From: Elusimicrobiota bacterium
GTDB lineage: Bacteria; Elusimicrobiota; Endomicrobiia; CG1-02-37-114; XYA2-FULL-39-19
Assembly (NCBI GenBank): GCA_018816525.1
Contig: JAHIVV010000021.1
Span: 1-35,845, forward strand
Reading direction: 5' to 3'
Length of the DNA: 35,845 nucleotides
A program made the position numbers and the translations under genes. The notes under the pieces were generated by a model, which worked only from the letters and a program-made list of their open reading frames with translations, was not told the origin of the DNA and made no database searches. Positions within the stretch are counted from its first letter, which is position 1, and the number at the start of each line of letters is the position of its first letter. Below are positions 2,492 to 9,934 of the stretch, piece by piece.

Positions 2492-2928
2492 TTTATCCTT
2501 TTATGCATCACTAGCGCATCATCATCGCCGTAGTAAGCGGTTCTTTTATATACGGCCTCAAACCCAAACTTCGTGTAAAGATTTTGTGCCGGTAAATTTT
2601 TTAACCTTACTTCCAAATAAAGATCCAAAATACCTTTCTGGTGCGCAAAATTCATTACATGACCAAGCAATTGGCTTGCTATTCCTTCTTTCCGCCGGTT
2701 TTTTTTAACAGCCAGGCTGACTATATTGCCTTCATCAGCTATATGCCACAAGCCGATATAACCGGTTATTTCTTCGCCTATTTTTGCGGTAAAAAAATAA
2801 GAAAATTTTAAAACCAGTTCCTGGCGGAATTTTTCTTTTGACCAGGGGTCCGGGAAGGATTCATTTTCAATTTCAACAATTTGGCTGATATCAGCTTCTG
2901 TAAGAGGCTCAATTACTGCCTGACGCAA
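2488..2928 (-). CDS. rimI: Ribosomal-protein-S18-alanine N-acetyltransferase-like GNAT protein
   Basis: A 146-residue single-domain GNAT acetyltransferase. The N-terminal IVEIENESFPDPWSKEKF segment is characteristic of RimI, and the acetyl-CoA-binding stretch follows (SLAVKKNRRKEGIASQLL, with the R/Q-x-x-G-x-A pattern near residue 80). A further RimI-like block is LEVRLKNLPAQNLYTKFGF, with the conserved N-x-x-A-x-x-x-Y. RimI acetylates the N-terminal alanine of ribosomal protein S18, and relatives acetylate other N termini. Its usual companions tsaB and tsaD are not here, so the substrate rests on sequence similarity only. It overlaps pdxA by 20 bases upstream and the TPR gene by 4 bases downstream. 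Confidence 0.85.
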   Translation of the reverse strand: MRQAVIEPLTEADISQIVEIENESFPDPWSKEKFRQELVLKFSYFFTAKIGEEITGYIGLWHIADEGNIVSLAVKKNRRKEGIASQLLGHVMNFAHQKGILDLYLEVRLKNLPAQNLYTKFGFEAVYKRTAYYGDDDALVMHKRIK

Positions 2929-3904
2929 ACTTAATAGCCTCCATCATGCTTGAAGGGTCCGCGCAATTTTTTCCCGCGATGTCAAATGCCGTGCCGTGCG
3001 CCGGTGAAACGCGCAAAAAAGGCAGCCCGCAAGTTATATTTACAAACTTCATGCCGCATAAAAGCCTTAAGGGCGCCATTGCCTGGTCGTGATATTGACA
3101 TACAATAAGATCGTTTTTTATCGAAATTGAAAATGCGTATTCAGCGGCAATGGGCCCGGAAATATTTAAATTCCGTTTTTTTAATTCTAAAATTGCCGGT
3201 ATTATTATTTTTTCCTCTTCTTTACCTATATGTCCGGATTCGCCGCAGTGAGGGTTTAAGGCGCACATTATGATTTCTGAAGGCCTGATATTTAAATAAT
3301 CCCTCATGGTTTTGATTACAGTCAAGACCTGCTGGGTCAATAGTTTTTTAGAAATAGAACCCGGAACTTTTTTTAGCGCTATATGCCTTGTTGCCAGTAA
3401 AACTTTATATTTTTCAGATGCCATGAGCATAGCAAATTGTTTAGAACAGGTTTTTTCTGCCAGATATTCCGTATGGCCGCTAAACCCCTGAATCCCTGAT
3501 TTTATTACAGATTCCTTTGATATGGGCCCGGTCACCAAAGAAAAAGCGTTCGGTTTTTTTATAATATGAGTGGTCAGCAAATTAACGGCAAAATTAAGGT
3601 AATCAATCGAAGCAGCGCCGGAAGTTCCTGAAACCACGCCCATTGCAGTTTTGTTTTTCAAAACCGCTAAATCAACAATATTGAGCGTATTTTTAGATAT
3701 TTTTTCAGGAATAAATTTTGAGTTAACGGTATACTTAACGCGAGATTTGTTAAGGAATTGTTTTAAAACGGAATAATCGCCTACGATAAGCGGTATGCAC
3801 TTCTTAAAAAGCTCCGGGGCTTCAATAAAAGATTTTACTGTGATTTCCGGGCCAATGCCCGAAGGGTCCCCTGTCGTGATGATTACAAGAGGAAATTCAT
3901 TCAT
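2909..3904 (-). CDS. pdxA: 4-hydroxythreonine-4-phosphate dehydrogenase (PdxA)
   Basis: PdxA oxidises 4-phosphohydroxy-L-threonine with NAD in the DXP-dependent pyridoxal phosphate pathway. The 331-residue protein has the family signature TTGDPSGIGPEI at residues 10-21, the substrate-binding GHTEYLA (His143-Thr144), and three predicted metal-binding histidines: His174 (ATRHIAL), His219 (NPHCGE) and His272 (QYHDQAMAP). It ends with GLPFLRVSPAHGTAFDIAG. The related PdxA2/DUF1537-linked catabolic enzymes share these motifs, but no such partner is nearby, so the biosynthetic role is preferred. The start overlaps the stop of the upstream SurA-like gene by 4 bases and the 3' end overlaps rimI by 20 bases, which suggests coupling through the envelope operon. 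Confidence 0.95.
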   Translation of the reverse strand: MNEFPLVIITTGDPSGIGPEITVKSFIEAPELFKKCIPLIVGDYSVLKQFLNKSRVKYTVNSKFIPEKISKNTLNIVDLAVLKNKTAMGVVSGTSGAASIDYLNFAVNLLTTHIIKKPNAFSLVTGPISKESVIKSGIQGFSGHTEYLAEKTCSKQFAMLMASEKYKVLLATRHIALKKVPGSISKKLLTQQVLTVIKTMRDYLNIRPSEIIMCALNPHCGESGHIGKEEEKIIIPAILELKKRNLNISGPIAAEYAFSISIKNDLIVCQYHDQAMAPLRLLCGMKFVNITCGLPFLRVSPAHGTAFDIAGKNCADPSSMMEAIKFASGSN

Positions 3905-8410: not shown

Positions 8411-9007
8411 TTAGAACAATCTCGAAAGCAAGGTAAGAAAAAGCCCCGATGAAACGGGCACCCAGAAATTGTCATTTAACGGCAAAGGAAGAAGTTCCAT
8501 TATGGTCGCTACAAACGCGCCCAAAATTGCCAAAGGCCAGGGCAGGAAAAATATTCCGCAGACAAAACAGACAACAAAACAAGCGAAACTGCCTTCAAGC
8601 GTCTTGCAATCCATTATTTTTGTTTTGCCGAATCTGACGCCAAAAAGGCAGGCCAGGCTGTCGCCAAAAACCATATAAAGCAAAGATGCCGTAACAATAT
8701 TTTTGTTACTGAAAAGAAACATGGTTAGAAAAGCCCCGGAAAACGTCCAGATTAAAGTGCTGATATTTTTAGATTCTGCTTCGCGGTAATAGCCATGAAA
8801 TACTTTCAGCGTAAATGCATTAAAGGAAGGGTATACAAACCTGAAGGATTCAACAATTATATCCGCTACTACCAGGCCGCCTGCAAAGCTAAGCACAATT
8901 TTAAGAGGCAGGGTATTGTAAATCACCGGGTAAATCAATATGAGAAAGTGCATCAACTTTCTTTTTATCTCTGAATAGCCGTAATGACAAATTACAGTTT
9001 CGTCCAT
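8411..9007 (-). CDS. CTP-dependent dolichol/diacylglycerol/phytol-kinase-like membrane protein
   Basis: A 198-residue protein with about six membrane spans of the cytidylyltransferase-like family that includes Sec59 dolichol kinase, Dgk1 and VTE5/VTE6. Visible signatures are an N-terminal IKRKLMHFLI (the R-K-x-x-H pattern), ESKNISTLIWTFSGA at residues 77-91, the nucleotide-site motif GDSLACLFGVRFGK at 115-128, and a following KTLEGSFACF. Such enzymes use CTP to phosphorylate a lipid alcohol or make a CDP-lipid. The lipid substrate cannot be told from sequence. It overlaps the upstream HExxH membrane protein gene by 16 bases and precedes the ABC exporter ATPase by 6 bases, so all four genes form one unit. 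Confidence 0.75.
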   Translation of the reverse strand: MDETVICHYGYSEIKRKLMHFLILIYPVIYNTLPLKIVLSFAGGLVVADIIVESFRFVYPSFNAFTLKVFHGYYREAESKNISTLIWTFSGAFLTMFLFSNKNIVTASLLYMVFGDSLACLFGVRFGKTKIMDCKTLEGSFACFVVCFVCGIFFLPWPLAILGAFVATIMELLPLPLNDNFWVPVSSGLFLTLLSRLF

Positions 9008-9690
9008 ATATTCTCTTTAGCCCTGATTAGCAGGTGGCAGGCCCATAAATATGCGTACCAGGAATCTTTTACGGAATCTTTTAGGAATTCTAAAAATGAT
9101 ACCTGGAAAAAAACCGAAAACATTGCTGCTAAAATCAAACAATTGGAAACAAAAATCAATAATAACGAATAAATAACCCCATACTTTTCCAGGTCGCTCT
9201 GGCCCTGATTTATTGCAAAAACTGTAAGTGCAACATGAAAAGATATAGTGATTCCAAGTAAAAATTGGAAGTAGTGGTTTACATTATACACATTTTTGGT
9301 GCAAATGTTAAATAACGCGTAAAACAATATAAGCACTATTGAATATATCGGGATAAAATACGGAGCAAGCGCAATAAAAATGTTTATTTTTGTAAGCGAA
9401 ACACTTCCGGAGGATTTTTTTATTTTGAAAGTTTTTACCCTGGCACCGGTCAGCCATCCGGCGATTGCATGGGCAAATTCATGGCCAAAAACATAAATTC
9501 TAAGAGGCCTGAAAAAAATCAACTGCAAAAAAATGTAACTTATTGCGCCGCAGATAAAATACGTCCACGGCGACTCAATCCCTGAAAAGCTGTTAACCTT
9601 CAGGATCAGCCGGAAAAAATTATTGCCGATGCCATAACATACCGGTAAAAGCAGCAAGCTTAAAATAAACGTGAAAATATTGCCAAACAT
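8992..9690 (-). CDS. M50-like membrane metalloprotease-like protein (HExxH)
   Basis: A 232-residue, mostly hydrophobic protein with five or six predicted spans. Residues 70-74 are HEFAH inside a hydrophobic segment, preceded by a Gly and followed by AIAGWLTGARVKTFKI, the arrangement seen in intramembrane M50 zinc proteases and M50-like proteins. The third zinc ligand of true site-2 proteases (an LDG/NxxPxxxxDG motif) is not obvious, so catalytic activity is uncertain. The start is at 9690, with only a weak ribosome-binding sequence (GGAATAAA). A short open frame ends 7 bases upstream. The gene leads the cluster with the lipid-kinase-like protein and ABC exporter. Confidence 0.65.
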   Translation of the reverse strand: MFGNIFTFILSLLLLPVCYGIGNNFFRLILKVNSFSGIESPWTYFICGAISYIFLQLIFFRPLRIYVFGHEFAHAIAGWLTGARVKTFKIKKSSGSVSLTKINIFIALAPYFIPIYSIVLILFYALFNICTKNVYNVNHYFQFLLGITISFHVALTVFAINQGQSDLEKYGVIYSLLLIFVSNCLILAAMFSVFFQVSFLEFLKDSVKDSWYAYLWACHLLIRAKENIWTKL

Positions 9691-9850: not shown

Positions 9851-9861
9851 TGGTTTTAAAG

Positions 9862-9934
9862 CGGGGTGTACGGGAGTCGCACCCGTGATCTCCTGCGTGA
9901 CAGGCAGGCGTGTTGACTACTACACTAACACCCC
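9862..9934 (-). tRNA. tRNA-Asp (GTC)
   Basis: The 73-base minus-strand sequence folds as a complete cloverleaf: acceptor GGGGTGT/ACACCCC, D stem GTGT/ACAC, anticodon stem CCTGC/GCAGG with loop CTGTCAC (anticodon GUC, aspartate), 5-base variable region AGATC, T stem ACGGG/CCCGT, and discriminator G. CCA is not encoded. Two features are odd: the D loop reads AGTAGTCA, so position 18 is A and not G, and the T loop is TGCGACT, so position 55 is G and not T. All stems are perfect, which argues against a decayed copy. It has its own good promoter. Confidence 0.93.

Follow-up and report, generated by a model that had tools for sequence, protein, structure and literature searches.

A putative A18·G55 elbow pair in what is probably the only aspartate tRNA of an Elusimicrobiota bacterium

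In the tRNA elbow, pseudouridine 55 opens the U-turn of the T loop, and G18, which intercalates between T-loop bases, contacts it. Both G18 and U55 (or pseudouridine 55) are described as universally conserved in reviews of the elbow and the T loop (PMC4810234, PMC7912444), the second of which cites the work of Zagryadskaya and Steinberg on the tRNA L-shape and the 54–58 pair. The window, by which we mean the whole 35,845-nt stretch of Elusimicrobiota DNA analysed here (contig JAHIVV010000021.1), carries a tRNA-Asp gene in which the canonical G18 and U55 are replaced by A18 and G55, with G19 and C56 retained (Table 1). Is this a gene in decay, or does it encode a working tRNA whose elbow is built differently? 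The base changes themselves, G18 to A and T55 to G with G19 and C56 intact, had been proposed by a first-pass annotation and are confirmed by the sequence and by its Rfam alignment. We favour, with a probability of about 0.8, the reading that the gene specifies a working, and probably the only, elongator tRNA-Asp, in which an A18·G55 contact replaces that between G18 and pseudouridine 55.

Table 1. Coordinates of the tRNA-Asp gene, its elbow bases and its neighbouring features in the window
Feature	Position	Strand	Remarks and basis
M50B-peptidase-like membrane protein	8992..9690	-	next gene; orthologue follows the ordinary tRNA-Asp in G002
tRNA-Asp(GUC) gene	9862..9934	-	73 nt; discriminator G73; CCA not encoded
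A18	9918	-	normally G18; sequence and structure alignment
G19	9917	-	retained, pairs with C56; sequence, Rfam
U54	9881	-	sequence
G55	9880	-	normally U55, the TruB target; sequence, Rfam, tRNA typing
C56	9879	-	retained, pairs with G19; sequence, Rfam
Sigma-70-like promoter, TTGACT-17-TATAAA	9954..9982	-	read from sequence; ends 19 nt before the tRNA

ARAGORN predicts a tRNA-Asp(gtc) at 9861–9934 of the minus strand, and the RNA read from 9862–9934 divides into GGGGUGU UA GUGU AGUAGUCA ACAC G CCUGC CUGUCAC GCAGG AGAUC ACGGG UGCGACU CCCGU ACACCCC G. The same interval matches Rfam RF00005 over its full length with 67.7 bits (cut-off 29), all stems being paired with zero broken pairs, and the predicted fold is an exact cloverleaf (−29.7 kcal/mol); the stems are as perfect as the first-pass annotation had stated. 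The D loop, AGTAGTCA, comprises A14, G15, U16, A18, G19, U20, C20a and A21, and the T loop, UGCGACU, comprises U54, G55, C56, G57, A58, C59 and U60. In Escherichia coli, the identity bases for AspRS are G73, G34 U35 C36, C38, G10 and G2–C71: all of these can be read from the sequence of the window tRNA. Upstream, TTGACT (9982–9977) and TATAAA (9959–9954) are separated by a 17-nt spacer and match 10 of the 12 consensus bases, which makes the earlier description of a good promoter a fair one; the promoter scanner missed this pair because its rule demands that the −10 box end in T. The gene encodes no CCA, a feature it shares with the majority of tRNA genes in the genome.

The genome to which the window belongs (G000) is a draft of 1.6 Mb in 93 contigs, 98.55% complete. 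A covariance search located 40 tRNAs in it, all of which were retrieved and typed, and just one is a tRNA-Asp. A second, standard tRNA-Asp, named by the first-pass annotation as part of what would overturn its reading, is not among these 40, and pattern searches of the genome for T55 tRNA-Asp of the CTGTCAA or CTGTCAC type found none. The assembly likewise contains no tRNA for Asn, Tyr, Thr(GGT) or Gly(UCC); a few tRNA genes are evidently unassembled, and a second tRNA-Asp may be one of them. A single tRNA-Asp is usual in the relatives, and the window gene probably supplies the bacterium's only aspartate tRNA. Together, its apparent sole-copy status and intact identity bases point to a role in translation.

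The gene occupies the ancestral tRNA-Asp locus. In G002, a member of a related genus of the same family, seven genes downstream of an ordinary G18/T55 tRNA-Asp are orthologous to, and collinear with, window genes from 8992–9690 down to 2909–3904; the window tRNA stands at the same locus and is, therefore, not a spare copy. The tRNA and the next gene are separated by ∼1 kb in G002 and by 171 bases in the window; of the window genes upstream, those tested have no match at the G002 tRNA-Asp locus. The body of the tRNA differs from that of the relatives, which have AGCCUGGUUUA as D loop and CUGUCAA as anticodon loop, and lies nearer to a GUGU...AACAC / CUGUCAC type found elsewhere, so that an in-place replacement from outside is possible. 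Under such an account, a tRNA body from a phage, a mobile array or another bacterium replaced the resident gene, and A18 and G55 were inherited from the donor. We regard this as a possible origin, albeit not the expected one: the similarity to outside tRNA-Asp (e.g. L180, with a score of 44.5, compared with ∼28–32 for the relatives' CTGTCAA type) and the frequency of A18/G55 in mobile arrays speak for it, whereas the gene sits at the ancestral locus, the nearest sequences found are G18/T55, and no close A18/G55 tRNA-Asp was found. In any case, it concerns where the gene came from and is compatible with a working A18·G55 tRNA.

Were the window gene an isolated oddity, the joint change of both contact partners, to which the first-pass annotation drew attention, might be fortuitous; it is borne out by a second tRNA of the same genome. 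The tRNA-Ile(GAU) of the rRNA operon (L006; G000:C61:16106-16180, minus strand), the sole tRNA of its kind found there, also carries A18 and G55, with the D loop AGUUAGUUUA and the T loop UGCAAUU. A18 occurs in 2 of the 40 tRNAs, and the same two, Asp and Ile, carry G55 (the other 38 are without A18); the probability that two A18 and two G55 would coincide at random among 40 tRNAs is 1/780. A separate variant is seen in tRNA-Thr(UGU) (L005; G000:C3:37550-37622, plus strand), which has C55 and retains G18.

The isoleucine variant extends well beyond this genome. When 96 genomes of the class were searched, G55 tRNA-Ile(GAU) turned up beside tRNA-Ala(UGC) in f1, the window's own family, in two further families of the order (f2 and f3) and in many genomes of f4, and all of those that were typed have A18; a match in f10, where the T arm alone was read, has the same G55 arm, GGTGCAAGT. 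Families f5 and f6 have a standard T55 tRNA-Ile. Judged by these sequences, several families of the class have conserved the A18/G55 tRNA-Ile. It shares A18, G55 and the retained G19 and C56 with the window tRNA-Asp; the difference is one of distribution, as the isoleucine variant is kept in many genera, whereas the aspartate variant occurs in one of the 341 phylum genomes searched. The comparison with relatives that the first-pass annotation had suggested returned standard tRNA-Asp in those typed. Four other matches in the phylum to the G55 tRNA-Asp arm were rejected, as ARAGORN predicts no tRNA at these sites, and the aspartate variant is therefore confined to G000 within this set. A DNA similarity search of 60 relatives with the window tRNA-Asp yielded matches to tRNA-Glu arms only, and these were also discarded.

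Further afield, ∼85,000 named genomes were scanned for the G55 tRNA-Asp arm with position 18 left unconstrained, and 25 loci were returned. True A18/G55 tRNA-Asp were present in three Omnitrophota (L134, L138 and L149), a Planctomycetales bin (L139) and a Kaiserbacterium (L136). Four loci have G18/G55 instead (L145, L147, L150 and L151, from Clostridia MAGs and, as one of four copies, Massilia), and A18 is therefore not strictly required. On some genome contigs, the variant dominates dense tRNA arrays: A18/G55 accounts for 14/14 tRNAs in L143, 34/38 in L153, 10/11 in L154 and 14 to 17/18 in L135, and the same scan of IMG/VR viral contigs found mixed or nearly pure A18/G55 arrays (L173 and L178). 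The neighbours of the L154 array, namely, a TrbI conjugation protein, an IS110 transposase and a toxin–antitoxin-like M78/DUF4411 pair, point to a conjugative element. By contrast, no A18/G55 tRNAs were found in T4, Caulobacter phage RB23, Pseudomonas phage SPA01, Phage Phass-1 or Lactococcus phage LW81, so this is not a general trait of phages with tRNA clusters. In the gut Phage Phass-1 (L214 and L226), the tRNA-Asp has the D loop AGAAGAGCA and a standard T55, an A18-like base with T55 that is a rare exception to the pairing. Several array tRNAs (Ile in L135, Gln and Asn in L154, Glu in L172 and Ala in L173) have the T loops AGCGTTA, AGCGTCA or AGCGTAA, which place A54 opposite T58 rather than the usual T54–A58. 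Across all sequences typed, 126 distinct tRNAs combine A18/G55 with G19 and C56.

The array tRNAs also allow the two positions to be compared statistically. We used 272 distinct tRNAs from loci picked only for a G55 tRNA-Asp, leaving out the tRNA-Asp that served as bait; a tRNA was scored as G18 if its D loop contains GG and, failing that, as A18 if it contains AG, so that position 55 plays no part in the assignment. The sample contains 101 A18/G55 and 132 G18/T55 tRNAs against 2 A18/T55 and no G18/G55 (the remainder are ambiguous, have C55 or are without a clear GG or AG), and positions 18 and 55 therefore covary (Fisher p ∼2e-65, ignoring shared ancestry and array membership). Moreover, A18/G55 and G18/T55 tRNAs lie side by side in 30 loci, so the choice is not only a whole-genome property. 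A57 is present in 53/101 A18/G55 tRNAs versus 17/132 G18/T55 tRNAs. On this pattern, A18·G55 is best described as an alternative elbow pair, and the covariation supports a direct A18–G55 interaction in such tRNAs. Because the swap recurs in tRNAs of bacteria, phages and mobile clusters, the A18/G55 elbow looks like a natural second way of building a tRNA elbow, not like damage.

These observations bear on the reading that the gene is decaying or spare, with a normal copy in an unassembled part of the genome, which we consider improbable. The missing tRNAs for Asn, Tyr, Thr(GGT) and Gly(UCC) would be consistent with it, as would Massilia L150, where a G55 tRNA-Asp that retains G18 lies beside three normal copies, so that single G55 changes do arise in spares; here, however, the change is double and fits a widespread covariation, the stems are perfect and the Rfam score high, the gene is at the resident locus, and relatives usually have a single tRNA-Asp. 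Neither broken stems nor redundancy with a standard copy, the marks of a pseudogene, were found, and with its stems, identity bases and locus intact the gene is, as first supposed, not obviously dead. It is more improbable still that the tRNA is specialized for a task outside translation. The elbow changes known from staphylococcal non-proteogenic tRNA-Gly, which serve the cell wall and whose use by the ribosome is thereby reduced, provide a precedent; those tRNAs, however, are extra isoacceptors beside a normal one, whereas the window tRNA is the only aspartate isoacceptor found in its genome and hence must read GAC and GAU. Additionally, G19 and C56 are retained, and A18/G55 is shared with tRNA-Ile(GAU), which is likewise the sole one of its kind found. 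As for an assembly or sequencing error, the window is one of the 93 contigs of a draft, but two separate bases would have had to change to exactly the combination seen in >100 other tRNAs with the stems left intact, and we scarcely credit it.

A further question is whether the loss of a modification enzyme accounts for the change. The TruB pseudouridine site is indeed gone, as the first-pass annotation had anticipated, and its sequence deprives the tRNA of the targets of both TruB and TrmH. TruB_N (PF01509) has no match in G000, G001 or G002, which are all three genomes of the window's family; as it is found in two other genomes of the order (G003 and G004), in 80/96 genomes of the class and in 14/14 control genomes, TruB seems to have been lost in the family. 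TruB loss alone was nevertheless rejected as the cause of G55: TruB-bearing G003 and G004 have the A18/G55 tRNA-Ile, a variant that is therefore older than the loss, and TruB-less G002 retains T55 in tRNA-Asp, so that the loss is neither necessary nor sufficient. It may permit the change at 18 and 55 without dictating it. In four genomes of another genus, g5 (G028, G059, G054 and G309), stop codons interrupt the TruB matches, as if TruB were decaying there.

How might such an elbow be held together? GNRA loops make the same turn as the T loop, with G replacing U. In the window tRNA, positions 55–58 are G-C-G-A, and we suggest that G55 would stabilize the abrupt bend of this loop in the same way that the opening G of a GNRA tetraloop stands in for the U of a U-turn. 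A18 would then replace G18 to fit the larger base at 55, which would need a partner able to donate an amino group to the carbonyl of G55 (the hydrogen-bond geometry proposed here is a model), and G19–C56 and U54–A58 would hold the rest of the elbow. A tRNA-Asp of this kind would manage without pseudouridine 55 from TruB or Gm18 from TrmH, and the apparent loss of TruB from the family may have relaxed the pressure for U55.

Set against the canonical bacterial tRNA-Asp(GUC), the window tRNA shares the cloverleaf, the GUC anticodon, G73, G10, C38, G19–C56, U54–A58 and the locus, and is set apart by A18, G55, the missing TruB target and the lack of a G18 for TrmH. With the mobile and phage tRNA arrays it has in common the A18/G55 pair of many of their members, although array tRNAs are accessory, whereas this is a lone chromosomal gene. 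Universal elbow bases have also been abandoned in tRNA-Pyl and other tRNAs without the G18 G19 motif (PMC7609411); those lose G18, G19 and U54-U55-C56, whereas the window tRNA exchanges the 18–55 pair only. The same review of non-canonical tRNAs mentions neither A18 nor G55 (PMC7609411). No description of A18/G55 was found in the literature searched, and with the reserve that specialized papers may mention it, the swap is apparently undescribed within that literature.

Tentatively, the findings can be extended to a broader proposal, although we doubt that it will hold as a whole: A18·G55 would be a second, self-sufficient elbow design, with a GNRA-like turn and an A–G interloop contact and without pseudouridine 55 or Gm18, that arose many times, was favoured where TruB is missing and became the rule in some mobile arrays, maybe concealing their tRNAs from enzymes of the host that recognize the standard elbow. 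The finding draws attention to tRNA arrays consisting almost entirely of A18/G55 members, and it means that pipelines for tRNA annotation and modification mapping cannot assume U55. That both partners are cleanly swapped in tRNAs found as single copies, and repeatedly so in different lineages, suggests that it is the contact that counts, more than the identity of the bases making it, and A18/G55 tRNAs offer a direct route to asking what pseudouridine 55 is for.
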